Assembly (NCBI RefSeq): GCF_036711975.1
Contig: NC_091976.1
Coordinates: forward strand, 31,868,001 to 31,932,000
Direction: 5' to 3'
Source: Onthophagus taurus
Lineage: Eukaryota > Arthropoda > Insecta > Coleoptera > Scarabaeidae
DNA: 64,000 nucleotides
The position numbers were made by a program, and so were the translations under genes. Positions within the stretch are counted from its first letter, which is position 1. Every line of letters begins with the position of its first letter. Under the pieces are notes generated by a model that saw only the letters and a program-made list of their open reading frames with translations, was not told the origin of the DNA and ran no database searches. This document shows, one piece after another, positions 1-54,660 of this stretch.

Positions 1-3000
1 AATTCTTTTTATCTCGAGATCGGTAAATGTTAGAGCTTTTAGATAAAAACACGCAAAATATATCAAGGAATTCAAAAATGTATCGAAAATAATGATAAAA
101 TCATTGGCGTAGATGCTATTGGGTGCTAAATAATGATATAATGAAATTTTATAATTTTTGGGTACTTTTAGTACAAAATTAATTTTATCTGGAGAACAAT
201 TGATGTTAGAGCTTTTAGATAAGAACACCTTTTTTATGCATAATATATCAAGGAATTCAAAAATGCATGCAAAGTAATAATACAACCAGTGATGTAGATG
301 TTACTGGGTGTTAAACAAAGATGTAATGAAATCTTATGATTTTTTGTGTTTTTGGTACAAAATTCTTTTTATCTCGAGAACGGTAACTGTTAGAGCTTTT
401 ATATAAAAGCACCTTTTTTACGCAAAATATATCAAGGAAGTCGAAAATGTATCCAAAATAATGATGAAATCATTGACGTAGATACTACTGGGTGCTAAAT
501 TATGATGTAATAAAATTTTATAATTTTTGGGTATTTTTAATAAAAAATTCCTTTTATCTGGAGAACAATTAATGTTAGAGCTTTTAGATAAGAACACCTT
601 TTTTACGCAAAATATATCAAGCAATTCAAAAATGCATACAAAATAATAATACAACCAGTGGCGTAGATGTTGCTGGGTGTTAAACAAAGATGTAATGAAA
701 TCATGATTTTTTGTGTTTTTGCTACAAAATTCTTTTTATCTCAAGAACGGTAACTGTTAGAGCTTTTAGAAAAGAACACTTTTTTACGCAGAATGTACCA
801 ACGAATTCAAAAATGTATGCAAAGTAATAATACAATCAGTGGCGTAGATGTTATTGGGTGTTAAACAAAGATGTTATGAAATCTTACGATTTTTAGTGTT
901 TTTGGTACAAAATTCTTTTTATCTCAAGAACGGTAACTGTTAGAGCTTTTAGAAAACAACACTTTTTTACGCAGAATGTACCAACGAATTCAAAAATGTA
1001 TGCAAAGTAATAATACAATCAGTGGCGTAGATTTTATTGGGTGTTAAATAAAGATGTAATGAAATCTTACGATTTTTAGTGCTTTTGGTACAAAATTCTT
1101 TTTATCTCAAGAACGGTAAGTGTTAGAGCTTTTAGATAAGAACACCTTTTTTACGGAGAATATATCAAGGAATTCAAAAATGTATCGAAAATAATGATAA
1201 AATCATTGACGTAGATACAACTGGGTGCTAAATTATGATGTAATAAAATTTTATAATTTTTGAGTATTTTTAGTACAAAATTCCTTTTATCTGGGGAACA
1301 ATTAATGTTAGAGCTTTTAGATAAGAACATCTTTTTTACGCAAAATATATCAAGGAATTCAAAAATGCATACAAAATAATGATAAAATCATTGACGTAGA
1401 TACTACTGGGTGCTAAATTATGATGTAATAAAATTTTATAATTTTTGTGTATTTTTAGTACAAAATTCCTTTTATCTGGAGAACAATTAATGTTAGAGCT
1501 TTTAGATAAGAACACCTTTTCTATGCAAAATATATCAAGGAATTCAAAAATGCATACAAAGTAATAATACAACCAGTGGCGTAGATGTTGCTGGGTGTTA
1601 AACAAAGGTGTAATGAAATCTTATGATTTTTCGTGTTTTTGGTACAAAATTCTTTTTATCTCAAGAACGGAACTGTTAGAGCTTTTAGATAAGAACACTT
1701 TTTTACGCAGAATGTACCAACGAATTCAAAAATGTATGCAAAGTAATAATACAATCAGTGGCGTAGATGTTATTGGGTGTTAAACAAAGATGTTATGAAA
1801 TCTTACGATTTTTAGTGTTTTTGGTACAAAATTCTTTTTATCTCGAGAACGGTAACTGTTAGAGCTTTTATATAAAAGCACCTTTTTTACGCAAAATATA
1901 TCAAGGAATTCAAAAATGTATCGAAAATAATGATAAAATCATTGACGTAGATACTACTGGGTGCTAAATTATGATGTAATAAAATTTTATAATTTTTGTG
2001 TATTTTTAGTACAAAATTCCTTTTATCTGGAGAACAATTAATGTTAGAGCTTTTAGATAAGAACACCTTTTTTATGCAAAATATATCAAGGAATTCAAAA
2101 ATGCATACAAAGTAATAATACAACCAGTGGCGTAGATGTTGCTGGGTGTTAAACAAAGGTGTAATGAAATCTTATGATTTTTCGTGTTTTTGGTACAAAA
2201 TTCTTTTTATCTCAAGAACGGTAACAGTTAGAGCTTTTAGAAAAGAACACTTTTTTACGCAGAATTTACCAACGAATTCAAAAATGTATGCAAAGTAATA
2301 ATACAACAAGTGGTGTAGATGTTATTGGATGTTAAATAAAGATGTAATGAAATCTTACGATTTTTAGTGTTTTTGGTACAAAATTCTTTTTATCTCGAGA
2401 TCGGTAACTGTTAGAGCTTTTAGATAAAAACTCGCAAAATATATCAAGGAATTCAAAAATGTATCGAAAATAATGATAAAATCATTGGCGTAGATGCTAC
2501 TGGGTGCTAAATAATGATATAATTTTTGGGTATTTTTAGTATAAAATTCCTTTTATCTGGAGGACAATAAATTAATGTTAGAGCTTTTTTACGCAAAATA
2601 TATCAAGGAATTCAAAAATGCATACCAAATAATAATACAACCAGTGGCGTAGATGTTGCTGGGTGTTAAACAAAGATGTAATGAAATTTTATGATTTTTT
2701 GTGTTTTTGGTACAAAATTCTTTTTATCTCGAGAATTGTAACTGTTACAGCTTTTAGATAAGAGCACCTTTTTTACGCAAAATATATCAAGGATTTCAAA
2801 AATGTATCGAAAATAATGATAAAATCATTGGCGTAGATACTACTGGGTGCTAAATGATGATATAGTGAAATTTTATAATTTTTGTGCATTTTTAGTACAA
2901 AACTCCTTTTATCTCGAAAACAGTTAATGTTAGAACTTTTAGATAAGAGTACCTTTCTTACGTAGAATATATCAAGGAATTCAAAATTGTATAGAAGATA

Positions 3001-3235
3001 ATAATAGAGTAAACGGCGTAGATCTTATTAGGTGCACAATAAAGTTATTCAATTTTAAAAGTCCTTAACTCAAAATCTTCCATATCTTGAAAAAGGTTAA
3101 TATTAGAGCTTTTAATCAAGAGCACCTTTTTGATGTAAAATACATTGAAGAATTCAAAAATATATTCAAAATTATTAGAAAGTTAGTGGGTGCTAAATAA
3201 AGATATAATAAAAATATTAAAGTTATCTAATGATT
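1..3235. repeat. ~184-bp tandem satellite, about 18 copies, cut by window start
   Basis: The word GTTAGAGCTTTT recurs about every 184 bases (near 28, 204, 388, 572, 754, 937, 1121, 1303, 1489 and on to about 3100). Two variants often alternate: one reads ATCATTGACGTAGATAC, the other CAGTGGCGTAGATGTTG. The higher-order period is therefore about 367 bases in places. Copies near the left edge are similar, while those after about 2900 are diverged and shortened, as expected at the edge of an array. Three nearly identical 89-codon minus-strand frames inside (418-687, 1336-1605, 1887-2156) come from the repeat and are not taken as genes. The array runs off the left end of the window. Confidence 0.93.
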
Positions 3236-6073: not shown

Positions 6074-6485
6074 ACGACTTGTAAAACGTTTCTCAAATTC
6101 TTGTTGTTTGGTTAACCACTACCTTGGACTGCATAGATTATATTCACGACAAGTTTTATTTTGCTCACTTTGTCATTTCAAAATAAGTTGGAGAGAAGAA
6201 GAAAAACGATTTTAATTTCTTATCTTTTCAAAATTTTCCATACGTTATGGATTCATTTAATAAACTTTAACTTATATTATGATTGTTATTAATTTTTTAA
6301 AGTATACCTGTGTCATTTTTCTTTTTAAGTTTAGGTTCACGTAAAAATCTTGTAGGTTGCATTAATACAACATCTTTGTCGTATCATAATACAGTGAATT
6401 TCACTTAAAATGCAATATACAAAAATATATTTCCATAGAAATTAAGGCGTACCTACTTACTTTAACCCACATAAAATGCAACATG

Positions 6486-7922
6486 TCTAAATGTTTCTAG
6501 TTCTAGGTCTAGAGTTAGTTCTAGTTTTACACTAACACTATCACAAGAACTAACACAAGACCTAGAACTAGAATCAATCGGGTTTAGCCGTCTTGAGAGA
6601 CGTGCGGCTAAATCCGAATGTTTCTAGTTCTCGGTCTAGTGTTAGTTCTAGTTTTGCACTAGCACTATCACTAAAACAAACACAAGACCTAAAACTAGAA
6701 TCATTCGGGTTTAGCCGTCTTGAGAGACGTGCGGCTAAACCCGAATGATTCTAGTTCTCGGTCTAATGTTAGTTCTAGTGTTACACTAGCACTATCACTA
6801 AAACAAACACAAGACCTAAAACTAGAATCATTCGGGTTTAGCCGTCTTGAGAGACGTGCGGCTAAACCCGAATGATTCTAGTTCTAGGTCTTGTGTTAGT
6901 TCTAGTGATAGTGGTAGTGTAAAACTAAAACCAACACTAGACCTAGAACTAGAATCATTCGGGTTTAGCCGTCTTGAGAGACGTGCGGCTAAACCTGAAT
7001 GTTTCTAGTTCTTGGTCTAGTGTTAGTTCTAGTTTTAGACTAACACTATCACTAGACCTAACACAAGACCTAGAACTGGAATCATTCGGATTTAGCCATC
7101 TCAAGAGATGTACGGCTAAATCTGAATGTTTCTAGTTCTCGGACTAGTGTTAGTTCTAGTTTTGCACTAGCACTATCACTAAAACTAACACAAGACCTAA
7201 AACTAGAATCATTCGGGTTTAGCCGTCTTGAGAGACGTGCGGCTAAACCCGAATGATTCTAGTTCTAGGTTTTCTGTTAGTTCTAGTGATAGTGACAGTG
7301 TAAAACTAGAACTAACACTAAACCTAGAACTAGAAACATTCGGGTTTAGCCGTCTTGAGAGACGTGCGGCTAAATCCGAATGTTTCTAGTTCTTGGTCTA
7401 GTGTTAGTTCTAGTTTTAGACTAACACTATCACTAGACCTAACACAAGACCTAGAACTGGAATCATTCGGATTTAGTCATCTCAAGAGATGTACGGCTAA
7501 ATCTGAATGTTTCTAGTTCTAGGTTTTCTGTTAGTTCTAGTGAGAGTGACAGTGTAAAACTAGAACTAACACTAAACCTAGAACTAGAAACATTCGGGTT
7601 TAGCCGTCTTGAGAGACGCGCGGCTAAACCCGAATGATTCTAGTTCTAGGTCTTCTGTTAGTTGTAGTGATAGTGGCAGTGTAAAACTAGAACTAACACT
7701 AGACCTAGAACTAGAAACATTCGGGTTTAGCCATCTCAAGAGATGTGCGGCTAAATCCGAATGTTTCTAGTTATAACTCTAGTGTTAGTTCTAGTTTTGC
7801 ACTAGCACTATCACTAAAACAAACACAAGATCTAGAACTAGAATCATTCAAGTTTAGCCATCTCAAGAGACGTGCAGCTAAATCCGACTGTTTCTAGTTC
7901 TCGGTCTAGTGTTAGTTCTAGT
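6486..7922. repeat. array of alternating palindromes, left block
   Basis: Two palindromic modules alternate with a period of about 150 bases. Module P is GTTTAGCCG ... CGGCTAAAC around TCTTGAGAGACGTG, flanked by CGGG/CCCG-like bases. Module Q starts TTCTAGTTCTAGGTCT, passes GTTAGTTCTAG, and returns as its own complement (CTAGAACTAACAC ... AGACCTAGAACTAGAA). Nearly every base can pair with its neighbour, so a single strand could fold into a chain of hairpins. Module P carries compensating changes (CGTCTTGAGAGACG against CATCTCAAGAGATG), so several variants are intermixed. Confidence 0.9.
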
Positions 7923-9417
7923 TTCTTTCCTTCCTCAAAAGTCTGCCCCCATGCAGATGCCGACCCTGAAGTAATTGACATAACCCGTCCATCAGGTAGG
8001 GTTCGCAGCACAGCTGGGAATATTTTCACACCCAACAGAGTAAGGTGGGCTATCTCGAATTTCAAGACCCTAAAATCACCTGGAGGAGATGGAATTCTGC
8101 CTATCTTTCTGCAAAAAGGCTTAGAAGATCTTCTCCCAATAATAATATCCCTATATATAGCTAGCTACAGCTTTAGCTATATACCCACTCTATGGAGGAA
8201 AGTAAAGGTGGTCTTCATACCTAAAGGTGGTAGGCGTTCAAACGCGGACCCCAAGGCGTACAGACCAATTAGCCTAACTTCATTTCTCCTCAAAGGGATG
8301 GAAAAGGTAATCGATCAATACCTAAGGAATGGAGTGCTTCTCACAAATCCACTCCACCCTAGCCAACATGCTTACCAGAAAGCAAAATCAACAATTACCG
8401 CTCTCCATGCTTTGACTAGCACCTTAGAGGAGGCAATTGCAACCAAAGAGATAGCCCTTTATGCTTTCCATAGAGAAGGCTTTAAACGTAAAAGACATAC
8501 ATCCGTCGACAATCAAGTGGTGCATAGCCATGTTGAAAAGTCGGCAGATCACAGCCAGTCTGGGAGGCGAGTCGCTGACTATAAAGGCGCTAAGAGGATG
8601 TCCCCAAGGGGGAGTGCTATCACCTCTATTATGGTGCCTGGTAGTTGATGACTTGATGAACACCCTAACTAAAAACGGATTTAAGATACAAGGGTATGCT
8701 GATGACCTGGTAATCACAATCCGAGGTAAATATGATTCAATCATAACTCAACTAATGCAGAAAGCCCTACTACTCACCAGTACTTGGTGCAGAAGCAATG
8801 GGCTCAGCATCAATCCCAATAAAATCGAAATAGTCCCTTTCACTCGGAGAAGGAAGCCATTGAAAGTAGAACTATTAACCTCAAAACAGAAACTAAATAC
8901 CTAGGGGTAATACTTGACAGTAAACTAAACTGGAACTCACACTTAGATAAGGTGAAGAAAAAGGCCATCATGGCAAACCAGATCTGCCGCAGGCTCCGCA
9001 GGAAGGAACTGGGGTCTCAAACCACGAATGGCTCATTGGGTCTACGTAGCAATAATCAGACCCATGGTTGCCTACGCCTCATTGGTTTGGTGGCCAAAAA
9101 CAAAACATAAGACAGCTCGACAACAGCTGGCACAAATCCAGCGGTTAGCATGTCTTAACATAACGGGTGCAATGAAATCCTGTCCGACGGCTGCTTTGGA
9201 AGCCCTACTCGGTCTCACACCGCTCCACATATATATACAAAAGGAGGCAGCCTTAAGTGCCTTATCACTGAAAACAGTTTCTTCACTCAAGTTGATGCAC
9301 GGTAATCTCAGAGGACACGTCGAGATCCTCAAAGACCCATGTCTAAATCACCTGATTAAAATTAAAACGGACCTTATACCGACGGAATACAATTTCAACC
9401 AACCGTATAAGGTCATC
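7923..9417 (+). pseudogene. non-LTR retrotransposon RT fragment, frameshifted (R1/jockey-like)
   Basis: This carries the RT domain and its C-terminal part without endonuclease or 3' tail. Visible pieces: KSPGGDGI and AYRPISLTSFLLKGMEKVID (frame of 7872-8648); RGCPQGGVLSPLLW and GYADDLVI, the catalytic YADD (frame of 8461-8904); KYLGVILDSKLNW (near 8908, third frame); and RPMVAYASLVWW with ALLGLTPLHIYIQKEA (9028-9420). At least three frame changes (near 8458, 8870 and 9015) break it. Such RTs normally act as one ~900-residue ORF2 protein, so this is dead. It begins and ends directly in palindrome repeat with no visible poly(A) or target-site duplication. That looks more like capture or recombination than a fresh insertion (inference). 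Confidence 0.9.
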
Positions 9418-11340
9418 TAGCCGTCTTGAGAGACGTGCGGCTAAACCTGAATGTTTCTAGTTCTTGGTCTAGTGTTGGTTCTAGTTTTAGACTAACACTA
9501 TCACTAGACCTAACACAAGACCTAGAACTAGAATCATTCAGGTTTAGCCATCTCACGAGACATGCGGCTAAATCCGAATGTTTCTAGTTCTCGGTCTAGT
9601 GTTAGTTCTAGTTTTGCACTAGCACTATCACTAAAACTAACACAAGACCTAGAACTAGAAACATTCGGGTTTAGCCGTCTTGAGAGACGTGCGGCTAAAC
9701 CCGAATGATTCTAGTTCTAGGTCTAGTGTTAGTTCTAGTGATAGTGGTAATGTAAATCTAAAACTCACACTAGACCTAGAACTAGAATCATTCGGGTTTA
9801 GCCATCTCAAGAGACGTGCGGCTAAATCCGAATGTTTCTAGTTATAACTCTAGTGTTAGTTCTAGTTTTGCACTAGCACTATCACTAAAATAAACACAAG
9901 ACCTAAAACTAGAATCATTCGGGTTTAGCCGTCTCACACTAGACCTAGAACTAGAATCATTCGGGTTTAGCCGTCTTGAGAGACGTGCGGCTAAACCTGA
10001 ATGTTCCTAGTTCTTGGTCTAGTGTTGGTTCTAGTTTTACACTAACACTATCACTAGACCTAACACAAGACCTAGAACTAGAATCATTCGGGTTTAGCCA
10101 TCTCAAGAGACGTGCGGCTAAATCCGAATGTTTCTAGTTATAACTCTAGTGTTAGTTGTAGTTTTGCACTAGCAGTATCACTAAAACAAACACTAGACCT
10201 AAAACTAGAATCATTCGGGTTTAGCCATCTCAAGAGACGTGCGGCTAAATCCGAATGTTTCTAGTTATAACTCTAGTGTTAGTTCTAGTTTTGCACTAGC
10301 ACTATCACTAAAATAAACACAAGACCTAAAACTAGAATCATTCGGGTTTAGCCATCTCAAGAGACGTGCGGCTAAATCCGAATGTTTCTAGTTATAACTC
10401 TAGTGTTAGTTCTAGTTTTGCACTAGCACTATCACTAAAATAAACACAAGACCTAAAACTAGAATCATTCGGGTTTAGCCGTCTCACACTAGACCTAGAA
10501 CTAGAATCATTCGGGTTTAGCCGTCTTGAGAGACGTGCGGCTAAACCTGAATGTTCCTAGTTCTTGGTCTAGTGTTGGTTCTAGTTTTACACTAACACTA
10601 TCACTAGACCTAACACAAGACCTAGAACTAGAATCATTCGGGTTTAGCCATCTCAAGAGACGTGCGGCTAAATCCGAATGTTTCTAGTTATAACTCTAGT
10701 GTTAGTTGTAGTTTTGCACTAGCAGTATCACTAAAACAAACACTAGACCTAAAACTAGAATCATTCGGGTTTAGCCGTCTTGAGAGACGTGCGGCTAAAT
10801 CCGAATGTTTCTAGTTCTAGGTCTTCTGTTAGTTCTAGTGATAGTGGCAGTGTAAGACTAGAACTAACACTAGACCTATAACTAGAAACATTCGAGTTTA
10901 ACCGTCTTGAGAGACGTGCGGCTAAACCCGAATGATTCTAGTTCTAGATCTTGTGTTAGTTCTAGTGATAGTGGTAGTGTAAAACTAAAACTCACACTAG
11001 ACCTAAAACTAGAATCATTCGGGTTTAGCCGTCTTGAGAGACGTGCGGCTAAACCTGAATGTTTCTAGTTCTTGGTCTAGTGTTGGTTCTAGTTTTAGAC
11101 TAACACTATCACTAGACCTAACACAAGACCTAGAACTAGAATCATTCGGGTTTAGCCATCTCAAGAGATGTGCGGCTAAATCCGAATGTTTCTAGTTATA
11201 ACTCTAGTGTTAGTTCTAGTTTTGTACTAGCACTATCACTAAAACTAACACAAGACCTAGAACTAGAATCATTCGGGTTTAGCCGTCTTGAGAGACGTGC
11301 GGCTAAACCCGAATGTTTCTAGTTATAAGCCTAATGTTAG
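9418..11340. repeat. array of alternating palindromes, right block
   Basis: Same modules and ~150-base period as the left block. It also holds a longer, well-conserved internal duplication: about 9800-10200 recurs at about 10340-10745, including a shared irregular junction TTTAGCCGTCTCACACTAGAC (9925 and 10465) where a palindrome arm is missing. That shows segmental copying of several units at once. After 11340 the pattern decays into unique sequence leading to the right terminal repeat. Confidence 0.88.
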
Positions 11341-11799
11341 TTCTAGTTTTAATTGTTATTCAGCGTTAGGTTGTGGTATATTTTTGTTGAACGAAAAGTA
11401 GAACCAGAAACATTTGGGTTTAGCCGTACATCTCTTAAGACAGCCGAAAACTTAGATTTAGCATAAGATGTTGCATTTTATGTGGCATTTTATGGTGACT
11501 GCGTTCATATATTGCGAATTATATGAAATTCCCGGTTTATAAAATGCAATGTGTACAGAATGAGATAGCAAAAATAGAAAATCTGTGATCTGCAGAAACT
11601 GATGTTCCTGAAACTGAGATAGCACCTCTATATTTTACGAAAAAAGCCAAAAAAAGAAATGAGCAGAACTCAATGAGAGAATGTCATCAAGATGGTAAAT
11701 GGAGATATTTAAGAATCGATGAAAAACCAGCAGTAGACGACTTCATCTTTTATGCGAGAGAAACTCTATGAGTAAGTATAACAGAAGAGGTACCCTCAT

Positions 11800-19555: not shown

Positions 19556-22500
19556 GAATATACATTAAATTTGCTTCAAAATGATTCTTATTTCATCTAG
19601 ATATCGCAATCAGTTATTGAGATACGATTCTTTAAACTTTTTTGATTTTAAACCAAAGTTACATACAAACAGGGTTGTATTGAAAAAATGATAACATGAA
19701 AATGTGAGTACTCAAAGGAATAGTCTTTACCACATTAAAAACTAATTAAATTTACTTTAAAATGCTTCTTATTTTGTGGTGATATCTCAATTAGTTTTTG
19801 AGATACGCCTACTTAAATTTCGCTTTTATTAATTTTATTGAAATGAATGATGTGTTGATTAAAAAATCGTAACATCGAAATCTATAGGAATAGAAAAATT
19901 ATTTTTGGTCCATTGAATATACATTAAATTTGCTTCAAAATGATTCTTATTTCATCCAGATATCTCAATCAGTTATTGAGATACGATTCTTTAAACTTTT
20001 TTGATTTTAAACCAAAGTTACATACAAACAGGGTTGTATTGAAAAAATGATAACATGAAAATGTGAGTACTCAAAGGAATAGTCTTTACCACATTAAAAA
20101 CTAATTAAATTTGCTTTAAAATGTTTCTTACTTCGTGGTGATATCTCAGTTAGTTTTTGAGATACGCTTTCTTAAATTTCGCTTTTATTAATTTGATTGA
20201 AATAAATGATGGGTTGAATTAAAAAAATCGTAACATCGAAATCTATAGGAATAGAAAAATGATTTTTGGTCCATTGAATATACATTAAATTTGCTTCAAA
20301 ATGATTCTTATTTCATCTAGATATCTCAATCAGTTATGGAGATACGATTCTTTAAACTTTTTTGATTTTAAACCAAAGTTACATACAAATAGGGTTGTAT
20401 TGAAAAAATGATAACATGAAAATGTGAGTACTCAAAGGAATAGTCTTTACCACATTAAAAACTAATTAAATTTGCTTTAAAACGCTTCTTATTTTGTGGT
20501 GATATCTCAATTCGTTTTTGAGATACGCCTACTTAAATTTCGCTTTTATTAATTTGATTGAAATAAATGATGTGTTGATTAAAAAATCGTAACATCGAAA
20601 TCTATAGGAATAGAAAAATGATTTTTGGTCCATTGAATATACATTAAATTTGCTTCAAAATGATTCTTATTTCAGCTAGATATCTCAATCAGTTATTGAG
20701 ATACGATTCTTTAAACTTTTTTGATTTTAAACCAAAGTTACATACAAACAGGGTTGTATTGAAAAAATGATAACATGAAAATGTGAGTACTCAAAGGAAT
20801 AGTCTTTACCACATTAAAAACTAATTAAATTTGCTTTAAAATGTTTCTTACTTCGTGGTGATATCTCAGTTAGTTTTTGAGATACGCTTTCTTAAATTTC
20901 GCTTTTATTAATTTTATTGAAATAAATGATGGGTTGAATTAAAAAAAATCGTAACATCGAAATCTATAGGAATAGAAAAATGATTTTTGGTCCATGGAAT
21001 ATACATTAAATTTGCTTCAAAATGATTCTTATTTCATCTAGATATCTGAATCAGTTATTGAGATACGATTCTTTAAACTTTTTTGATTTTAAACCAAAGT
21101 TACATACAAACAGGGTTGTATTGAAAAAATGATAACATGAAAATGTGAGTACTCAAAGGAATAATCTTTACCACATTAAAAACTAATTAAATTTGCTTTA
21201 AAATGTTTCTTACTTCGTGGTGATATCTCAGTTAGTTTTTGAGATACGCTTTCTTAAATTTCGCTTTTATTAATTTTATTGAAATAAATGATGGGTTGAA
21301 TTAAAAAAATCGTAACATCGAAATCTATAGGAATAGAAAAATGATTTTTGGTCCATTGAATATACATTAAATTTGCTTCAAAATGATTCTTATTTCATCT
21401 AGATATCTCAATCAGTTATTGAGATACGATTCTTTAAACTTTTTTGATTTTAAACTAAAGTTATATACAAACAGGGTTGTATTGAAAAAATGATAACATG
21501 AAAATGTGAGTACTCAAAGGAATAGTCTTTACCACATTAAAAACTAATTAAATTTGCTTTACAATGCTTCTTATTTTGTGGTAATATCTCAATTAGTTTT
21601 TGAGATACGCCTACTTAAATTTCGCTTTTATTAATTTTATTGAAATAAATGATGTGTTGATTAAAAAATCGTAACATCGAAATCTATAGGAATAGAAAAA
21701 TGATTTTTGGTCTATTGAATATTCATTAAATTTGCTTCAAAATGATTCTTATTTCATCCAGATATCTCAATCAGTTATTGAGATACGATTCTTTAAACTT
21801 TTTTGATTTTAAACCAAAGTTACATACAAACAGGGTTGTATTGAAAAAATGATAACATGAAAATGTGAGTACTCAAAGGCATGATCTTTACCACATTAAA
21901 AACTAATTAAATTTGCTTTAAAATGCTTCTTATTTTGTGGTGATATCTCAATTAGTTTTTGAGATACGCCTACTTAAATTTCGCTTTTATTAATTTTATT
22001 GAAATAAATGATGTGTTGATTAAAAAATCGTAACATCGAAATCTATAGGAATAGAAAAATGATTTTTGGTCCATTGATTATACATTAAATTTGCTTCAAA
22101 ATGATTCTTATTTCATCGAGATATCTCAATCAGTTATTGAGATACGATTCTTTAAACTTTTTTGATTTTAAACCAAAGTTACATACAAACAGGGTTATAT
22201 TGAAAAAATGATAACATGAAAATGTGAGTACTCAAAGGAATAGTCTTTACCACATTAAAAACTAATTAAATTTGCTTTAAAATGTTTCTTACTTCGTGGT
22301 GATATCTCAGTTAGTTTTTGAGATACGCTTTCTTAAATTTCGCTTTTATTAATTTTATTGAAATAAATGATGGGTTGAATTAAAAAAATCGTAACATCGA
22401 AATCTATAGGAATAGAAAAATGATTTTTGGTCCATTGAATATACATTAAATTTGCTTCAAAATGATTCTTATTTCATCTAGATATCTCAATCAGTTAGTG

Positions 22501-23625
22501 AGATACGATTCTTTAAACTTTTTTGATTTTAAACCAAAGTTACATACAAACAGGGTTGTATTGAAAAAATGATAACATGAAAATGTGAGTACTCAAAGGA
22601 ATAGTCTTTACCACATTAAAAACTAATTAAATTTGCTTTAAAATGTTTCTTACTTCGTGGTGATATCTCAGTTAGTTTTTGAGATACGCTTTCTTAAATT
22701 TCGCTTTTATTAATTTTATTGAAATAAATGATGTGTTGATTAAAAAATCGTAACATCGAAATCTATAGGAATAGAAAAATGATTTTTGGTCCATTGAATA
22801 TACATTAAATTTGCTTCAAAATGATTCTTATTTCATCAAGATATCTCAATCAGTTATTGAAATACAATTCTTTAAACATTTTTGATTTTAAACCAAAGTT
22901 ACATACAAACAGGGTTGTATTGAAAAAATGATAACATGAAAATGTGAGTACTCAAAGGAATAGTCTTTACCACATTAAAAACTAATTAAATTTGCTTTAA
23001 AATGTTTCTTACTTCGTGGTGATATCTCAGTTAGTTTTTGAGATACGCTTTCTTAAATTTCGCTTTTATTAATTTTATTGAAATAAATGATGGGTTGAAT
23101 TAAAAAAATCGTAACATCGAAATCTATAGGAATAGAAAAATGATTTTTGGTCCATTGAATATACATTAAATTTGCTTCAAAATGATTCTTATTTCATCTA
23201 GATATCTCAATCAGTTATTGAGATACGATTCTTTAAACTTTTTTGATTTTAAACCAAAGTTACATACAAACAGGGTTGTATTTAAAAAATGATAACATGA
23301 AAATGTGAGTACTCAAAGGAATAGTCTTTACCACATTAAAAACTAATTAAATTTGCTTTAAAATGCTTCTTATTTTGTGGTGATATCTCAATTAGTTTTT
23401 GAGATACGCCTACTTAAATTTCGCTTTTATTAATTTTATTGAAATGAATGATGTGTTGATTAAAAAATCGTAACATCGAAATCTATAGGAATAGAAAAAT
23501 GATTTTTGGTCCATTGAATATACATTAAATTTGCTTCAAAATGATTCTTATTTCATCAAGATATCTCAATTAGTTACTGAGATACGATTGTTTAAACTTT
23601 CTGGATTTTAAGCCAAAGTTACATT
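19556..23625. repeat. 360-bp satellite, about 11.3 copies, dimeric
   Basis: TACATTAAATTTGCTTC recurs at about 19561, 19920, 20281, 20640, 21002, 21363, 21721, 22081, 22442, 22801, 23162 and 23521. Each 360-base unit is two related ~180-base halves: both contain ATTAAATTTGCTT, then a GATATCTCA...TGAGATACG foldback, then a TTTAAA/TTAAAT tract. The second half has two forms, A (CTTCTTATTTTGTGG, CCTACTT) and B (TTTCTTACTTCGTGG, CTTTCTT), in the order A B A B B A A B B B A. Copies are otherwise nearly identical, apart from point changes. The last copy decays after about 23605. Confidence 0.96.
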
Positions 23626-23639
23626 TGATAGTCATAATC

Positions 23640-24020
23640 ATATTTAAATTCGGTTCATAATGTTTTCCGATTTCCAATCTTCATTTTCTTCATTCCGTCA
23701 AGAAATTCTCTTCTATCTCTCGTTAAGTTGTTTATCTATTTCCTCTCTCTAACTTATCCTCGGTCTTCTTCTCCTTCTTCGTCTTTGGTGCTTCCATTGC
23801 CATATTTGTTTTGGCCAACTGCATTTTGTACCTTTAGCCATCTTTCTTTGAACCCTAGAACTGCTTTGGCTGCTGCGTGCGTGCAAATCTTTATAAAATG
23901 GTAGTGTTCTTCAATGTTTTTATACTGCATGTTTTCTAGTTTTTCATCTAATCTAGCTTTATACCGGGAATCATTGGGTAGCTTTGCAAAGGAAAAGTTT
24001 TGCTTGGAAAAAAGTGACAT
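23640..24020 (-). pseudogene. RTE-type non-LTR ORF2 fragment (linker between endonuclease and RT)
   Basis: The minus strand from 24020 encodes 88 codons, including KARLDEKLENMQYKNIEEHY and HFIKICTHAAAKAVLGFKER. This is the pattern of the linker after the endonuclease in RTE-like retrotransposons. A later frame gives RREFLDGMKKMKIGNRKT, also typical. No endonuclease or RT motif is left. It is wedged between the 360-bp satellite and the 151-bp array. Confidence 0.6.
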
Positions 24021-24039
24021 CCTTATGATAACACTGAGT

Positions 24040-25225
24040 TTATGGCCGTCTTAAGAGAGGCACGGCTAAACCGAAATGTTTCTGGTTTCCACAATCTAAC
24101 GCTAGAGCAAGAACTAGAAATATTCGGATTTAGCCACACGTCTCTAAAGACGTCTAAACCCGAATGGTTCTAGTTCTAGGTCTTGTGTTAGTTCTAGTAA
24201 TACCTCCAGTGTTAGTTCTAGTGATAGTGCTAGTGTAAAACTAAAACTAACACTAGACCGAGATCTAGAAACATTCGGATTTAGCCACACGTCTCTAAAG
24301 ACGTCTAAACCCGAATGGTTCTAGTTCTAGGTCTTGTGTTAGTTCTAGTAATACCTCCAGTGTTAGTTCTAGTGATAGTGCTAGTATAAAACTAAAACTA
24401 ACACTAGACCGAGATCTAGAAACATTCGGATTTAGCCACACGTCTCTAAAGACGTCTAAACCCGAATGGTTCTAGTTCTAGGTCTTGTGTTAGTTCTAGT
24501 AATACCTCCAGTGTTAGTTCTAGTGATAGTGCTAGTGTAAAACTAAAACTAACACTAGACCGAGATCTAGAAACATTCGGATTTAGCCACACGTCTCTAA
24601 AGACGTCTAAACCCGAATGGTTCTAGTTCTAGGTCTTGTGTTAGTTCTAGTAATACCTCCAGTGTTAGTTCTAGTGATAGTGCTAGTGTAAAACTAAAAC
24701 TAACACTAGACCGAGATCTAGAAACATTCGGATTTAGCCACACGTCTCTAAAGACGTCTAAACCCGAATGGTTCTAGTTCTAGGTCTTGTGTTAGTTCTA
24801 GTAATACCTCCAGTGTTAGTTCTAGTGATAGTGCTAGTGTAAAACTAAAACTAACACTAGACCGAGATCTAGAAACATTCGGATTTAGCCACACGTCTCT
24901 AAAGACGTCTAAACCCGAATGGTTCTAGTTCTAGGTCTTGTGTTAGTTCTAGTAATACCTCCAGTGTTAGTTCTAGTGATAGTGCTAGTGTAAAACTAAA
25001 ACTAACACTAGACCGAGATCTAGAAACATTCGGATTTAGCCGCACGTCTCTAAAGACGGCTAAACCCGAATGATTTTAGTTCTAGGTCTTGTGTTAGTTC
25101 TAGTAATACCTCTAGTGTAAAACTAGAACTAACACTAGACCTAGAACTAGAAACATTTGGGTTTAGCCGCAAGTCTTTCAAGACGGCTAAACCCGAATGA
25201 TTCTAGTTCTAGGTCTAGTTTTAGT
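24040..25225. repeat. 151-bp tandem array, 7 near-identical copies, related to the palindrome element
   Basis: CGGATTTAGCCACACGTCT starts at 24125, 24276, 24427, 24578, 24729 and 24880, exactly 151 bases apart, with a seventh variant unit near 25031. Each unit contains modules of the 6.5-11.5 kb arrays: a P palindrome (TTTAGCCACACGTCTCTAAA) and a Q palindrome (TTCTAGTTCTAGGTCTTG ... AACACTAGACCGAGATCTAG). Unlike the 6.5-11.5 kb blocks, the central copies differ by hardly a base, so this block is recently amplified or homogenised. The outer edges are diverged. Confidence 0.95.
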
Positions 25226-27180
25226 GCAATAAAAATATGCAACATAGTGATATCTTATGCTAACTAGCTCTACCTACCACTGCCACTAGAACTAACATTA
25301 TACCATATAGAGTTGGCATAAGCATTATAGAGTTAGGTTCATCTTGATCATTCGTTAATTTTTTACGTCCCATGTTATTATACATATATCTTCTTACTTA
25401 TTAGAATGTCTATTTTTGTTGAGAATCCTTGGATGTTCAAAATCAATTTCATTTTCCGGTCCATGGTTAACTGTTTTTTTTTTAATTATGAGCCTAACTA
25501 ATTTGCAATGATAGCTGAAAAATGATATAATTAAGTGTAACTAAATATGCAGAAATTTCTAATTCTCACAAATACTTGAAAGATATCGATAAGACGACGT
25601 TGTGTTAAATTAGCTAAAGTGTGATGATGATTTATTTGCTAATTAAATTAATTAGTCGCGTGCCAAATTCCAAATAGGATAAAATAACAGTTATTAATAC
25701 ACGTGTTGTAAGCTAATTATTAATGTATTCCCAATTAATAAAAAGTTTTACAAATGTTGGAATAATTTGAATCGTTGAACAGCGATAAACAGTTTAATAA
25801 TTTATTATTTAATTTATTATTTCATAATTAAATAGAATTCAACGAATTTTTGTGTATATAAAACCCGAATCATCGTGTAATTTTAGATCATCGTAGAATT
25901 TGTACCAAGCGTAGGCCTATAAATAGTAACGATATCTGAGAATAACTAAACTATGTTTTACATCCGTCTATATAACGTCGTGTTTGTTTATTTTTGGAAT
26001 ACTCGAGTGACATTCGAGTGCACCGAAGAGGAGATAAATTAATTCAGACATCGCGGCTATTTTTCTTTGTTGCTAAGCCATCAATGTTAGATTATATATA
26101 TATTAATAAAATATGAATAATCATGAAGTGGGGATAGAGCTTTGATTACTTAAAATTTTTTATTGGGGCTGTAATTATGCAAATGGCATTTTACGACCAA
26201 AGAGATAAATTGACCCAATTTACTGTTGGCAAGTGGTTTCCTAGTAGGTACCCATTGTTCAATTGCTAAATTGCTATTGCTAAATGGAACTACTTTTATG
26301 TACTTTGGCACATGCGGTCGTATCCGAGTCTATTATAAATATTAAACAATTCGCGGATAAATTGCGATAATTCAAGATTACGCACGCGTCTCTTCTAGTT
26401 TAATCTCCACGAAAAGACCATTAACACTAATGTCCTTTTTATTGAATTAAGCTCTTAAAAGTTAATGTTCTCAGAAATTTTTATAAATTACTCTTAGAAT
26501 GAAGTATCCCAAAGTCTTAAAAATCGAGATTAAACAGCATAAATTGTAAATAAACAAAATAGAAAAACGAAAATTGAAATACGTCTAGAAAAAAAGAAAC
26601 AGATAAAATCGTAATGCTTAAAAATCCGGGTTAAAAAAAGAGGTATTGAACCGAAAAATGGACCTTGAAACATCGAAAACAACCTCTTTTTAATTACTCT
26701 TCAACGCTGATAAAATAAACGTTGCCTAAAACCGAAAAAATAATCTAAAAAGATTAACTCTCAAACCACGTTAGAGAAGCGTGTAAAAATTTCGTATCAA
26801 CACTATCAAATTAATATCTATTTAATATTTCGAGTCACTATAAAAAGTTTTTTTTTTCTTTACAAGCTAAATCCTATTACAGAAGGAGGCAAAGGTTATC
26901 GTAGTTCACGGTGCCCGTAGCAGAAAAAAGTAGTAAATATTTTTTTGGATTATCGAACGATCTAATAATTAGGTTAAAGGGTACAGGAACTAAAATCAGG
27001 AATTCCTGGTTAAAATAAAAATATCCCATTCAAAACAAACGGTCAGATATCATTATTTTATTGCATTATACATTTAAATAAATGTTTTTAATTATTTTTT
27101 TTCTTTTAAATCTTAATCATTTTCCGATGCGTAGTAACATTGTATCATTTGACCTGATGGCCTTGTTATTAGCTACGTTA
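25226..27180. other. no recognised coding sequence; possible TATA-type promoter near 25854
   Basis: 25226-25330 continues as a decayed unique core of the palindrome family (TGCAATAAAAATATGCAACA). GTATATAAAAC at 25853-25863 is a good TATA-like word, followed by a less AT-rich stretch (25870-26060), but no frame after it can be identified. The remainder shows nothing I can support. Confidence 0.35.
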
Positions 27181-32530: not shown

Positions 32531-32865
32531 ACTACTTGTCATTTGATAAAATCTTTGATGAAATGGCTAATAGTTGAAATAGAATCTTATATTTAAAGTT
32601 GAATTTATTATAACTCTGAAAACAAGGAGATAACTTCAAGCAAAGATAAATAATTTAAGAGGAATTAGAGACTAATTGTATAAATAATGAAGAAGCACCA
32701 TAAATCTTCTCAAAGATCCCAGTAAACAAGAAACCTCTGTGAAACATTTCAATTTTAACGTACAGTGAATTAAATGAAACATCTTAGAACTACAGAAACA
32801 TTTCATTTGAAACATTTCGCTACAAATGTGTCTGAAACATGTCTGGAATATTTACAAACATTAAT

Positions 32866-33405
32866 TAATGTTTGTAAACAGAACTAACCTAAGGTAACAT
32901 TCCTTCACGGTTTAATTGGCATTTCAAAAGAAAACTTCACGCTATAATTGGCATTACTAATTACTAAAGAAAACTTCACGCTATAATTAATGTTTGTAAA
33001 CAGAACTAACCTTACCTAACATTCCTTCACGGTTTAATTGGCATTTCAAAAGAAAACTTCACGCTATAATTGGCATTACTAATTACTAAAGAAAACTTCA
33101 CGCTATAATTAATGTTTGTAAACAGAACTAACCTAAGGTAACATTCCTTTACGGTTTAATTGGCATTTCAAAAGAAAACTTCACGCTATAATTGGCATTA
33201 CTAATTACTAAAGAAAACTTCACGCTATAATTAATGTTTGTAAACAGAACTAACCTTAAGTAACATTCCTTCACGGTTTAATTGGCATTTCAAAAGAAAA
33301 CTTCACGCTATGATTGGCATTACTAATTACTAAAGAAAACTTCACGCTATAATTAATGTTTGTAAACAGAACTAACCTTACGTAACATTCCTTAAGGAAT
33401 ATTCA
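32866..33405. repeat. 121-bp tandem repeat, about 4.3 copies
   Basis: TTAATGTTTGTAAACAGAAC recurs at about 32865, 32986, 33108, 33230 and 33352. Units include TTCACGCTATAATTGGCATT and an internal repeat of AAGAAAACTTCACGCTATAA. Copies differ at only a few bases. It lies inside the CCCAGTAAAC element, as is common for subterminal arrays in non-autonomous DNA elements. Confidence 0.93.
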
Positions 33406-33445
33406 TTCCCGGGTGGTATGCTCAGAAATGCTTCCTCAGCATATG

Positions 33446-34559
33446 GGTAGAAGGAAGAGCGAAGACTGGAGGTGGGAAGGGAAGGAGATAGAGGAGGTGA
33501 GGGAGTACACATATTTGGGGTACAGATTTAGAGAGCACAACAAGGAAGGCGCGCATGTGAGGGCAATGGCAAAAAAGGCGAATAAGGTGATGGGGCAGGT
33601 CTGGGGGTGGGGAGAGAGATTATTTGGAAGGGATATGGGAAAAAGGAAGATGATATTCGAGTGCTTGATTAGAAGTGTTATGATGTACGGGGCGGAGCTT
33701 TGGGGGTGGAAAGAGCAAGGGCTGTTGGAAGGCGTACAGGCTAGGTATTGGAGATGGGTTTTTGGTTGGCAAAAGAGAGGGAGCCGGAGTACATAGTCAG
33801 AGAAGAGGTGAAGGTTGATAAGTTAAGAGTGGAGGCGGGTAAAAGGGCGGTACGTTTTGAGGAGAGGGTTGAAGGGAGGTCTCAATGTAAAATTTTGGGG
33901 GAGTGCTGGAAAGAGATTAAGGCAGGGAAAGGGGGTGACGGGTAACGAGGGAGGGAGGAATATTTCAGAAGGGTGGGGTACTCAGTGAAAGCGGTAGATG
34001 ATAGAAGGAGGGAAGGGATTGAGATGTGGAAAGAGCTGGAGAGCAGGGATAGAGATGTACAGAGGCAAGAAAGAAGGGGGCAGATAAGGGAGAGCAGGTA
34101 CAACCCTAAGTACGAGGAAATAATAACGGAGGGATTGCCGAAGTACCTGTCGGTGGAGGGGGATGAGGAGGGGAAGAGGATGGTGGCAAGATTCAGATGC
34201 GGCAATGAGGAGAGAGCGAATAGGTATTGGATGAGAGATGATGAGAGGGGTTGTAGGCTATGTGGGGGGGAGTGGGAGTCGTTGGAGCACCTACTGAGGG
34301 AGTGTGACGAGCTAAGAGAGGAGGTGATCGGCTGGAAGCAGGTGCTGGGGGAGGGGGCAGAGGGAAGAGAATGGATGAGGGAGGTGGTGGCGACAAGGCA
34401 GCGTAGGGAGATGCGGGGAAGAGATGGAGAGGGGTAGGATAGGAAATAAAATGTATTGTATTGTAATGTGATATATGTAATTGTACTATTGTTAAAAATT
34501 TAATTGTTTGTGGAATGTATTGCTGATTTGGTAGCAATAAACTTAAATAAAAAAAAAAT
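33446..34559 (+). mobile_element. 5'-truncated non-LTR retrotransposon with poly(A) and 15-bp target duplication
   Basis: CTTCCTCAGCATATG occurs just before (33431-33445) and just after (34560-34574), a target-site duplication. The 3' end is AATAAACTTAAATAAAAAAAAAAT. The insert encodes an RT C-terminal region: REYTYLGYRFREHNKEGAHV, SVMMYGAELWGWKEQ, then after a frame change near 33770 EYIVREEVKVDKLRVEAGKR, and later (33973-34437) a zinc-knuckle-like CRLCGGEWESLEHLLREC. RT fingers and palm are absent, which fits 5' truncation during reverse transcription. The plus strand is extremely G-rich and C-poor, unlike anything nearby. This is a comparatively recent arrival. Confidence 0.93.
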
Positions 34560-35071
34560 CTTCCTCAGCATATGCATGTGTTCTGATGAAGCATGTATGA
34601 GCATGTTGTCTGGGATGCAGATGCTAAAGGCCAACAAAACCGTTATTGAAACATTTCAGTAATGTACCGTAATTGTCAACTGTATGTTGCAGAAACATTT
34701 CAATAGAAACGTTTCAATGAAACATAAAAAGGGCCGGAAATTAGCAGTTTCAGACACGTTTCACCTATGTTTCAGAAATTTGTCGAAGAAACATTTCATG
34801 TTTCAATAATATGTATCAGAAATGTTTCTGAAACGCAAATTTGTTTACTGGGATGTTGCCCTAATGAAATATAGTAGATTATCTGATAAGAAATAAATGT
34901 ACTACTTGCCATTTGATAAAATCTTTGATGAAATGCAGTGGCGTAGCTAGCCATGAAGGGGCCCTGTATCAATAAAATATCGGGGGCCCTTTTTGGGGTA
35001 ATAAAGAACACATATATAGTCGCAAAAACGATAATACTTATAAACTAAACTTATGTATATGATATAAACTA

Positions 35072-40092: not shown

Positions 40093-43000
40093 ATGTCCAG
40101 AGTTATAATAACGAGAAGTGTACCTTCGTTAACCTCTTTGTAAGTTAATTAAAGTAATCGAAATTTTTTTTAGGTTATGTCAAAATTAATTCTTTTAGGT
40201 GTACTTATTTCGTCGTGGATCATCTCAAAGAATCTCTATACCAAACCGATCTCCTTTATTTGCCCGTTAAATTGAAAGACAAACTTTTAAAACGATTTTT
40301 GGTCAGCCAACAATATTGGAAAAACATTGATTTTAAAACGATATTAAAATTATTGGTTCACCCAGGAACTAAATCGTTAAATCTAACTCAAGTACATGTT
40401 GATGATGAAATATTAGAAATAATCAGTATTTGTCGTGGTTTACACGAACTTTATTTAACTCTACATAATTGGAATACCAACAGTGTATCAACGAATGGAT
40501 TATTAAAATTATTTCCTTGTCTACCACACTTACACATCATTTGCTTACCTAGATGTAATGCTGTTGACGATAATGTCATTTTGTGTATTACTGAACATTG
40601 CAAAAAATTAGCTGGATTAGATATTAATTCGTGCGATCAAGTTACTTCAAAATCGATTAGTATTTTATCGAAAAGTGATCAATTATTATGGGTAACTTTA
40701 TCAAAGACAAATGTAAAATAATTTGGCCAAATTTATATATGATTTGTTAATTAAATCGATTTTTTTTAATAGGTGTGTGATGAAGGTATTCAAAACTTAG
40801 TTTTGGGACCTAGTGGAAAGTATTTGAAGGAGTTAAGATTAAATGATTGTTCACAATTATCAAATAATGTCCTTCAATTAATTGTTGAGCATTGTAAAGA
40901 TTTGGAGGTGTTGGTTTTTAATGATTGTAGCCGAATAGCAGGTATGTTTAATTTAGGTTAACCCCTTTATTATTATTTTTTTTTAATTAATTGATCACAA
41001 TGATAATGTTTTAAGTTCAATAAAAAAAATTTTGCAGAATGATTCAAATTAATTCCATTTATAGATGATTTGTAGAGAATTATATTCCCTTTTTGGTATT
41101 TTATATACAGGGTGTTTCAATCATTAGACGTTTCTAGGGTTCTGGCCAAAATAAAAATTTGAGAATTCAGATTTAAATATTATCAGTTGCGTTCTCTTCG
41201 ACTAAAATATTTTCAGATTTCTAACACTTCCGGTTATACCGGAAGTCGCTACATACGTTATTTTTTTTACTAGTTTAGATTTATCTGTTTTCAAGGCTAA
41301 CGAATAATTTTACTTTTTTAATTAGATTCAGCCGTTCTCGAGTTATTCGAATTTTTCTAGAAAAATCTGCTCCAGCAGACATTTGTTCAATAAATCAGAG
41401 AATATTCGATTTTTGAGATATCAATTTAGGATTCAGAACATGCTTAAGCAACATAATGGAGTATGTTTTGGTGCTGAGAACGGCTATCTAGATCATTTTG
41501 TCACTTTACCATGGCACGTTAACTTTTCGAAAATTTTGAAGTACCATAACTTTTTTTTTTAAATAGCACCCCCCATATTTTATTACTTAGTCGTCTCATT
41601 TTACATCTTTTATACTCCATATGTTCTACACCTAACATTAATAGTTTGGGAAATAATTAGGTTTTTTGAAAAATGCTTACATATATTGATATTAACCTAG
41701 TGTGCCATGGAAAAGAAATGTTTAATGACTTATTGACACTTATTGACAAACGTCAAAGTCTGATTTACGTTGTTTGATGCTTGTGAGTATAAAACCAGTT
41801 AACATGGATATTAATAACGTAAATAATGTTTATACAAATGCAGAAATCCTTAATTTATTTTTATACACGGAAAGTGCGACAAAGTTCTTAGTAGAACCAC
41901 AGAATAACCAGAAGTGACAGTGGCAGTATCCCGCGAAATCTGACGCCATATTATAGCGAGTTATCAAGGTATGTTGCTATTGGCAGGATACCGCTAATGT
42001 CACTTCTGGTTCACGTCTCGTAAGACGGCTAAACCCAAACGATTCTAGTTCTACTATATAATCTAATATACGTACTTTTCTAATACGTATATTTAACCTT
42101 TCAACTACTTCAATAAAAATATACAACAATCTAGCGATTAATAACAATTAAGACTAGAATTAACACTAGACCTAGAACTAGAATCATTTGGGTTTAGCCA
42201 CACGTCTCTAAAGACGGCTAAACCTGAATGATTCTAGTTCTAAGTATCGTGATAGTAAGTACTGGTGATAAGATGGCGGATTTTAAATCGAGGTCACAAA
42301 ACGAGGTGCCGCCCAAGGTTTATATATAAAAGGTTGTCTAGGTTCGTACGCAACCATACTACGCATTACGTCACATGTGGAAAATAATACCGCCAAGCAA
42401 TTCAAATTAAACAAATGCATGGAGCACCACATGGCCATGAGGTTGCGTGCGCAATCCGTGATCGCTTATGTCACGAAACACTCCTGCTCTTGCCCCTCGC
42501 CCACAAACTAAAATCAAAGTATTGCAGCATAGGAACTTAGACAACCTTTAATATACAGGGTGGTCCGTTACTAATGGGACACAGAGCAACAGTGAATTCC
42601 TTACATATAATTATTACGATTTAACCCAATTTATCTTTATCCTATGGATTTTTGCGTATGGGGATTTGTAAAATCCCTTGTTTACAAAGACAATCCTGAA
42701 ACTCGTGAGGAACTGTGGCAAAAAATTGTAAAGGCAGTGGATATCATTAGGAAAGAACAAATATTATTTAACATAAGAAGATCATTTTCTAAACGGATTG
42801 GAAAATGCATTGAAGCTAACGGTGGTCACTTTGAACACTTACTCTAATGCAGTTCATTTTAATTGTTATTATTGTTTCCTCTTTTTGTTCGATGTTATTA
42901 TTATTAAAATGTTTAAATAAATTATAGTCGTTATTCAAATCGATTTTTAATATAGTAATTATGTTAATATTTTTGTAACATCAACTTATGTTTGTGGATA

Positions 43001-54146: not shown

Positions 54147-54290
54147 TGTTTAACTAGAGTCATTCGCATCTTTCTAGTTCTAGTTTTAATTCAATGCAAA
54201 TATGTACAACAGAGCGCTATCTACCACTGACACTACAACTAACATTAGACCTAGAACTAGAAATATTCAGACAAGTTGTATTTTATGTGG
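54147..54290. repeat. solo copy of the palindrome family with terminal repeat
   Basis: TTTCTAGTTCTAGTTTTAA, a unique core (TGCAAATATGTACAACAGAG, CTATCTACCACTGACACTA), then TAGACCTAGAACTAGAAAT, and finally TTGTATTTTATGTGG, which matches the right terminal repeat of the 6.5-11.5 kb element. About 145 bases in all. It may represent a minimal form of that family. Confidence 0.7.
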
Positions 54291-54299
54291 GACGTAGTA

Positions 54300-54660
54300 A
54301 GTAGGTACGCCCTAGTATGATAGAAGCCATCAGACCCAAACTAGGACCCAACACAACCCAAAATGTTAACATAGTTTACTATGCCGAAGACGCCGTTTTG
54401 ATTACAAGTAACGAAGATGACCTGCAAAGACTAGTGTATCACTTCAACATAGCAACTAAGTAATACAATATGATAATATCAACGGAGAAAACAAAATATA
54501 CGGTTATATCCAAAGAACCAAGACGGTGCAAGCTACAAGTTGAAGACTAGGTGTACAAATTACAAACTATTGAGATCTATGTAAGGAAGCACAAGTGGTA
54601 AGATGTCTAAGGAACACTATATGGCGCAACAAATACATGCGTGTAGAAGGAAAAATGAAA
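54300..54660 (+). pseudogene. RTE-type RT fragment (YADD region)
   Basis: VYYAEDAVLITSNEDDLQRL (YADD changed to YAED), then YHFNIATK, a stop, then MIISTEKTKYTVISKEPRRC. This is the region around the catalytic box to the thumb of RTE-like RTs. Stops follow soon after. Flanking sequence carries no tail. Confidence 0.78.

Follow-up and report, generated by a model that had tools for sequence, protein, structure and literature searches.

Inverted repeats of 18 bp enclosing about 5 kb of repeated palindromes raise the question of whether this locus in Onthophagus taurus is a transposable element or an ordinary satellite. The 18-mer CCACATAAAATGCAACAT and its exact inverted partner lie in the window, the 64,000-nucleotide stretch of contig NC_091976.1 analysed here (Table 1). 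Allowing up to three mismatches, the window holds five matches to this motif against 0.14 expected, and the exact 18-mer occurs 564 times genome-wide (299 + 265) against 0 and 1 for reversed controls, which excludes a chance occurrence. An assembly-only artefact is unsupported, given the spread of termini over many contigs. The earlier note had taken the 18-mers for the ends of the element. They are indeed exact, but alignments place them in a subterminal position with outer blocks, L and R, beyond them, which rules them out as true ends; the element extends outward on both sides, with the outermost L-type homology beginning at ~6389–6392 and the R-type block stopping at 11535. It is likely that the locus belongs to a dispersed, non-autonomous, TA-inserting family of DNA transposons that carries a palindromic satellite, a reading based upon the TA rule, the copy number of the 18-mer, the one-sided position of the modules, and the convergence of L and R ends.

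Table 1 Features of the window copy and of other relatives within the window.
Feature	Position	Strand	Basis or remark
Complete element between its outer termini, ~5.1 kb, with LINE fragment inside	6392..11535	+	end-type alignment in 30 loci, paired copies, profile matches
TA preceding left terminus	6390..6391	.	right flank 11536-11537 = TT
L-type end: outer block CAGTGAATTTCACTTAAAATGCAATATAC and inner 18-mer	6392..6484	+	profile match 6389-6510, E 4.2e-33 (window's L end itself among the profile-building sequences)
Left 18-mer CCACATAAAATGCAACAT, subterminal	6467..6484	+	exact match
Palindromic array, left part: P + Q units of 127 bp in a higher-order period of 381 bp	6490..7924	+	TRF; P positions
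LINE (non-LTR retrotransposon) fragment, broken RT frames, nested in array	7925..9417	+	RVT_1; genome copies
Palindromic array, right part: units of 127 bp, steps of 169 bp, tandem 550-bp block duplication	9418..11350	+	TRF
Right 18-mer copy, subterminal	11468..11485	-	exact match
R-type end, outer block CCGGGAATTTCATATAATTCGCAATATATG, internal deletion beside 18-mer	11468..11535	-	profile match 11468-11539, E 2.6e-13
Internally deleted second relative: piece of R terminus, CCGGGAAT, joined directly to R-internal sequence and followed by an array and a diverged AATGCAACAT-like motif	23964..25255	-	by eye
Array of second relative, 151-bp units	24038-25225	-	TRF; by eye
Short piece of module, no L/R ends recognisable	42012..42230	.	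profile search
Truncated L end and short module stretch	54221..54316	-	L profile E 2.6e-12; 18-mer with 2 mismatches at 54273

Exact termini were counted genome-wide, giving 133 for L and 74 for R. The dinucleotide TA directly precedes 119 of these L termini and 71 of the R termini, while TA accounts for 9.6% of dinucleotides in the window (~10% expected by chance). This is the TA target-site duplication of IS630/Tc1/mariner elements, and it is present on both sides of L033, L034, L035, L044, and L065 and on one side only of L032 and the window copy, whose duplication is imperfect because its right flank reads TT. The L end of the window copy is 87–95% identical to 39 others among the genome matches listed. 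Among loci with two facing ends (L031–L066 plus the window copy), 13 of 14 combine L with R and one combines L with L. Exact L and R termini lying within 10 kb of each other converge in all five cases, with outer spans of 236–2,008 bp (comparison covering 110 of the 133 L rows and all 74 R rows); the other exact-terminus pairs within this distance are four L–L pairs (one convergent, one divergent, two same-strand) and four R–R pairs, all same-strand.

Modules lie inward of the 18-mer in 26 of 30 loci and outward in two (Fisher p 2e-10), and four of the six distinct array clusters anchored on module P have a profile L or R end within 1.5 kb; end fragments were recognised by eye at the other two. 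No L or R profile match was found at the second relative in the window. The earlier note had likened the element to a MITE with an interior expanded into a satellite, a description to be abandoned if the 18-bp ends were never found together or if most arrays lacked them. So far as this comparison was run, the description holds up and is largely right, given the abundance of the 18-mer, the sidedness of the modules, and inverted partners in a number of copies. Copies are dispersed, share termini, and apparently lack a transposase of their own, as in MITEs, which measure under ~600 bp. Spans between facing 18-mers (up to three mismatches) are larger, from 341 to 5,019 bp, with 9,069 bp in L035, which contains nested inserts. 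The element works like a MITE enlarged by its array. No open frame of at least 100 amino acids lies between the ends in seven of the 14 two-ended loci. Of the other seven, five hold the inserts or transposase pieces described below (the window copy, L035, L039, L053, and L065), and neither the frames of L031 nor the one scanned frame of L033 gave a Pfam match at E 0.01.

Movement of the element is what we infer from these sequence features. The window stretch would be one old copy of the non-autonomous family, and a transposase supplied in trans would act on the two unlike ends, L and R. Transposition would disperse array-bearing copies, and the satellite (P + Q, 127 bp) may grow and shrink after insertion by exchange of multi-module blocks. 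In the window copy, a LINE would have entered the array at a later stage.

The transposase is most likely of the IS630/Tc1/mariner type, perhaps from the pogo/Tigger group; the pogo terminus had no match in the literature searched. Three coding inserts were rejected as the autonomous partner. The 504-aa DDE_1 open reading frame in L035, for which 85 matches are listed (L035 included), all ~100% identical in protein, is part of a distinct element of 3.8 kb that has TIRs of ~939 bp and is nested at L035:3721-6646. The open frame of L053 (Pfam DUF4817) sits in another nested transposon, bounded by inverted ends of its own that were recognised by eye, and the 526-aa frame of L039 is a LINE reverse transcriptase.

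A further candidate is L065. Within ~3 kb, this Tigger-like copy has an L and an R end, each flanked by TA, together with decayed pieces of DDE_1 and modules resembling Q. It is possible, though we lean against it, that such an element is the mobilising partner and that the array family consists of its internal deletion derivatives. In line with this, non-coding copies such as L001, L002, L008, and L018 have a Tigger-like start, CAGTAAAACCTCGATATAACGG, at the internal TA where L065 begins CAGTATTACCCC, and in one other copy of the transposase unit (C7:5938481) a match to the modules lies 60 bp beyond the junction. However, L065 is the sole copy joining L/R ends to a DDE_1 transposase, which may be nested; for other copies of its transposase unit, the match with L065 extends no further than the array junction, and a relative, L066, has a Tigger-like terminus of its own, CAGTAATACCCCG, outside the transposase. 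We give this reading reduced weight because foreign inserts are frequent in L/R copies, including transposons bounded by TIRs of their own (L035, L053) and LINE reverse transcriptases (L039 and the window copy).

The interior of the window copy consists of two alternating modules, as first described, P of 46 bp and Q of 79 bp, in which 32 of 46 and 60 of 79 positions, respectively, equal their own reverse complement. Other parts of the initial description need correction. Instead of a period of ~150 bases, TRF finds a unit of 127 bp with some 169-bp steps, and the 151-bp period belongs to the second array at 24096-25118. Nor is the element almost wholly palindromic, since 1,493 of its 5,019 bp (7925-9417) are a LINE reverse-transcriptase fragment nested in the array. 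One piece of this fragment matches Pfam RVT_1 (E 9e-19), and 19 of 39 other scored genome candidates match the whole stretch at 91–95%; no target-site duplication was seen around it. The 127-bp TRF rows show 83–93% matches between units, so the array is in itself a tandem satellite. In the right array, 447 identical bases recur from 9780 at an offset of 550, in a copy whose L end diverges by at least 5% from every other match listed. Array lengths thus change by block duplication, and the one in the window is recent. P modules share one orientation in 26 of 27 cases within the window copy. Relative to the ends, their orientation is mixed (19 + and 16 - on the L side, 13 + and 26 - on the R side), which rules out a fixed orientation, and we therefore make no claim of a single origin.

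Modules are also found in other contexts (L042, L046, L050, L055, and L066), joined in L050 to at least one other end type, so the array does not form a fixed unit with the ends. Candidate vehicles for P/Q include the L/R family, the family represented by L050 (GCTCACGGGTTGA...AAAATGCAACATGT), and the context TTGAAAAGGTA seen in L042 and L046; P/Q also adjoins the Tigger-like copies L065 and L066. We tentatively suggest that the P/Q satellite might be a travelling cargo that transposons with several unrelated kinds of end have each acquired, and that spreads by a swap of vehicles, with palindromes perhaps acting as recombination hot spots. The same variety of contexts, together with turnover by block duplication, would be expected if this were an ordinary dispersed satellite that travelled through recombination or on extrachromosomal circles, with the 18-mer as a conserved edge motif. 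This is unlikely given the TA rule at both termini, the convergence of unlike ends with modules on one side, and short two-ended copies with an outer span down to 236 bp. A TA-inserting transposon that carries the satellite remains the better account.

The structure of the ends bears on a further alternative. The exact inverted repeat is the subterminal 18-mer, not the outer blocks, which are partly alike between L and R (14 of 19 positions in the best-matching segment; 5 of 300 shuffles as good). IR/DR ends have two transposase sites each, as in Sleeping Beauty. Inner and outer motifs are loosely alike here (14 of 19 positions in L and 13 of 19 in R), a likeness only suggestive of direct-repeat ends, since 11 and 31, respectively, of 300 shuffles matched equally well. 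The palindromes themselves could be multiple putative transposase-binding sites that aid movement in a foldback-type element, as proposed for Galileo and Tetris, and the plan resembles Tetris in placing tandem repeats within an inverted-ended element (PMC4079207). We think this improbable because the motif likeness is weak against shuffles, the arrays lie between the inverted ends rather than forming long TIRs of tandem repeats, the duplication is TA rather than 8–10 bp, and short L–R spans (236 and 380 bp) leave little room for an array.

Self-folding, which the earlier note had anticipated, is predicted to be strong for P (6702-6747, z -7.0) and Q (6622-6703, z -6.1), whereas the two control stretches gave z -2.3 (the one within the LINE fragment) and z -0.6 (the one outside). 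Retention of hairpin arrays through transcripts that feed a small-RNA pathway, to which such folding would lend itself, is nonetheless very improbable, with compensatory double changes close to chance in 139 distinct P modules (10 vs 5.6, 6 vs 3.7, and 0 vs 1.1 expected), hence no clear signal of RNA-structure conservation there, and a Q stretch of the second array barely better than shuffles (z -0.7). The palindrome arms mutate independently, and so nothing indicates that hairpins are maintained.

The claim that no named element class has such a plan fails, since transposon-borne satellites have already been described in Tetris (PMC4079207), Cg_HINE (PMC7492417), and TCAST (PMC3411249). A description of the L/R family and matches to four module strings were not found in the literature searched. 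Other animals already show the principle, and the L/R family adds to it; the element class extends existing knowledge and does not break it. Hundreds of copies in one genome make a countable system for satellite growth on a transposon, in which each copy can be scored for the length of its array, for duplicated blocks, and for its end types. The cargo reading, if true, would mean a satellite moving between transposon families.

The TA duplication and an L terminus starting CAGT are features that we take to be shared with pogo/Tigger transposons, as are the DDE_1 pieces of L065 (Pfam); most of the L/R copies examined, in contrast, lack a transposase of this kind, and their two ends differ (CAGTG and CCGGG). 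Helentrons are rolling-circle elements, and Helitrons and Helentrons have no TIRs, no target-site duplication, and rolling-circle termini. Judged on its inverted ends and TA flanks, the L/R family belongs to neither. It does resemble Cg_HINE, the non-autonomous Helentrons of the Pacific oyster, which have dispersed satellite-like central repeats with conserved flanks and varying flank/repeat combinations (PMC7492417), but differs in having inverted ends at TA. TCAST of Tribolium castaneum is likewise a satellite in a TIR element without transposase, dispersed in beetle euchromatin, with a Transposase 1 (mariner-type) domain in one related copy; its satellite forms part of ~269-bp TIRs, some copies have an ACT duplication, and there is no long internal palindromic array, unlike in the L/R family (PMC3411249). 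Tetris/DAIBAM is a foldback element of Drosophila virilis with TIR-220 repeats (PMC4079207). It is also a non-autonomous DNA transposon; the tandem repeats in its interior form satellite-like arrays as well, and its copies are variable and rearranged, with repeats duplicated between alleles. Tetris has 8–10 bp duplications and long TIRs that hold the repeats, whereas the L/R family has TA, short unlike ends, and palindromic repeats between them.

The earlier note had proposed a MITE whose inside had expanded into a satellite, and this central guess proved good: the element belongs to a real, abundant and dispersed family of TA-inserting, apparently non-autonomous transposons carrying an internal palindromic satellite. 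The whole-genome search it had suggested (290.8 Mb in 33 contigs, window included) recovered 299 + 265 exact copies of the 18-mer CCACATAAAATGCAACAT (reversed control 0 and 1), and the core of palindromic module P occurs in 1,214 + 1,112 copies (control 0 and 0). Among the first 30 18-mer loci of contig 1, each examined together with its 1.5-kb flanks, the inner side of the 18-mer carried modules in 26 and the outer side in two (L009, L026; Fisher p 2e-10), with four loci (L005, L006, L015, L027) having no inner modules; because these loci were picked by the exact 18-mer, they are uninformative on its conservation.

Two palindromic modules do alternate between the 18-mers, as first described. 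P has perfect arms of 16 bp around a 14-base centre and Q is an imperfect palindrome of 79 bp, and both fold much more strongly than shuffled sequence does (z -7.0 for P, -6.1 for Q). Their period is 127 bp, not the ~150 bases originally given; a spacing of 151 bp belongs to a second array in the window, whose Q stretch folds hardly better than shuffles (z -0.7). Nor is the element almost wholly palindromes, since the LINE fragment nested within it carries no array.

The 18-bp inverted repeats are exact (6467 and 11468-11485 in the window), but they are not the ends of the element. Aligned loci share two unlike outer blocks beyond the 18-mer, L, which starts CAGTGAATTTCACTTAAGATGCAATATAC, and R, which starts CCGGGAATTTCATATAACTCGCAATATATG. 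TA directly precedes 119 of 133 exact L termini and 71 of 74 exact R termini in the genome, while making up 9.6% of window dinucleotides. Among termini with at most five mismatches in the loci read, it stands before 18 of 22 L-like and 13 of 18 R-like ends, two lists that overlap by two termini. The window copy is flanked by TA on its left but TT on its right, an imperfect target-site duplication.

Among L031-L066 and the window, 14 loci had two facing ends, L with R in 13 and L with L in one (L035); the profiles of both blocks derive from 24 ends in the loci read. Exact termini, taken from 110 of the 133 L and all 74 R, formed 13 pairs no more than 10 kb apart. All five L-R pairs converged, spanning 236-2,008 bp from one outer terminus to the other. 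The four L-L pairs comprised one convergent, one divergent and two same-strand at ~7 kb, and the four R-R pairs were each same-strand, three coming from a run of three termini on contig C5 that would represent whole elements in tandem or their right halves. Starting from the array, eight P-anchored loci fell into six clusters, and in four of these the profiles located an L or R end no more than 1.5 kb away. By eye, one other cluster (L052) contained R- and L-internal pieces, and the last (L055) a weak, nine-base L-like edge.

The array also occurs with other edges. In L050 it lies between different inverted ends, which also contain ATAAAATGCAACATGT and appear to be a second vehicle family, and arrays in L042 and L046 adjoin a common TTGAAAAGGTA edge. 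The array is therefore not tied inseparably to the L/R ends.

What lies between the ends differs among the 14 two-ended loci, and no gene is shared across the family in the loci read; open frames of at least 100 aa are absent in seven, and foreign inserts are frequent. Frames in L031 and L033 had no Pfam match at E 0.01 (one of two frames scanned in L033), and by eye the one in L033 looks like part of that in L053. The DDE_1 element of L035 looks young and recently active, judging from ~100% protein identity across the 85 matches listed (L035 included) and two copies 99.8% alike in DNA.

Features of the window, the L/R loci and related sites.
Feature	Location	Details
L terminus, window copy	starts 6392	
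R terminus, window copy	ends 11535	
LINE reverse-transcriptase fragment between ends	window 7925-9417	broken frames; 1,493 of 5,019 bp
LINE reverse transcriptase between ends	L039	RVT_1 E 3e-28
DDE_1 element, 3.8-kb	L035:3721-6646 (nested between ends); also L063, L064 (C1:3548212 and others)	TIRs ~939-bp, 97.7% alike
DUF4817 transposon, nested between ends	L053:213-1049 + flanks	own inverted ends AAGGGTTTTCCAATAAGAGG and complement; sits at TA of R-internal AGCTTAATA
Frame akin to L053 transposon (by eye)	L033:1501-1842	
DDE_1 pieces between ends	L065	
5'-truncated LINE copies adjoining P/Q modules	C7:1063459, C7:14493273, C6:2888231, C5:2325299, C7:40283563	
Exact R termini, one strand	C5:2772003, 2772713, 2773417	spacing ~0.7 kb
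Array with unlike-family inverted ends	L050:3432-5056	GCTCACGGGTTGA..TTTCATAAAATGCAACATGT
Arrays with TTGAAAAGGTA edge	L042:2266-3216, L046:5860-6104, L046:8569-8724	beside repetitive AATGCCAATTTGA-like stretch
Tandem array	window 1-3034	period 185/369 bp
Tandem array	window 19556-23624	period 359 bp, 96% matches
Second array	window 24096-25118	period 151 bp
Tandem array	window 32862-33393	period 122 bp
Tandem array	window 51050-54146	period 285 bp
Strong G skew	window 33001-35000	+0.38 to +0.47; long ORFs both strands
ORFs	window 33386-33796, 33946-34437 (+)	by eye same LINE family as reverse transcriptase nested in L039
Exon, tRNA pseudouridine synthase-like	window 49239-49952	
GTPase-like gene	window 55404-56198 (-)	MMR_HSR1 match

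A partner mobilising the family might be sought in L065, found by comparing DDE_1 positions with L matches by eye. In this copy, flanked by TA left and right, the L and R ends enclose ~3 kb that contains fragments of a decayed DDE_1 transposase and, ahead of the R end, Q-like modules. We consider it doubtful that this transposase unit is the partner, as its other genomic copies match L065 at most to the array junction (to query 726 in four, 707 in two and earlier in the rest; in one of these copies, C7:5938481, modules match again 60 bp beyond). Furthermore, a relative on contig 6 (L066) has its own Tigger-like terminus past the transposase, with P/Q modules ~210 bp beyond that terminus, and other L/R copies contain plainly nested transposons.

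The array itself seems to receive insertions. Forty candidates were scored against the window LINE fragment, window included; 19 of the other 39 matched it end to end in one piece (91-95%), and five were 5'-truncated, with varied break points and array modules just upstream. It looks like this LINE inserted repeatedly into these arrays, possibly with a preference for them. Since the query extended 40 bp into the array at both ends, this serves as a lead rather than as an estimate of rate.

The right array of the window copy holds a 550-bp block in two tandem copies, 95% identical over the entire block and with a 447-bp identical run from 9780; the left array has a three-unit period of 381 bp. 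Set against the 87-95% identity of this copy's L end to the other 39 matches listed, the identical run indicates that the array was probably altered long after insertion, presumably by unequal exchange or replication slippage. Across 139 distinct P modules the arms mutate largely independently, and compensatory double changes are few and near expectation (largest 10 vs 5.6 expected), which argues against selection on pairing; the array could still yield small RNAs.

Four P/Q module strings had no match in the literature text searched, and we recognised no description of the L/R family in that literature, where hits other than the three papers cited here were assessed by their listings. Transposons carrying and seeding satellites are already known from Tetris in D. 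virilis (PMC4079207), Cg_HINE in oyster (PMC7492417) and the TCAST transposon-like elements of Tribolium (PMC3411249). The L/R family has this transposon-borne plan in common with them and adds another example, but differs in its TA duplications, its unlike ends and its palindromic two-module unit.
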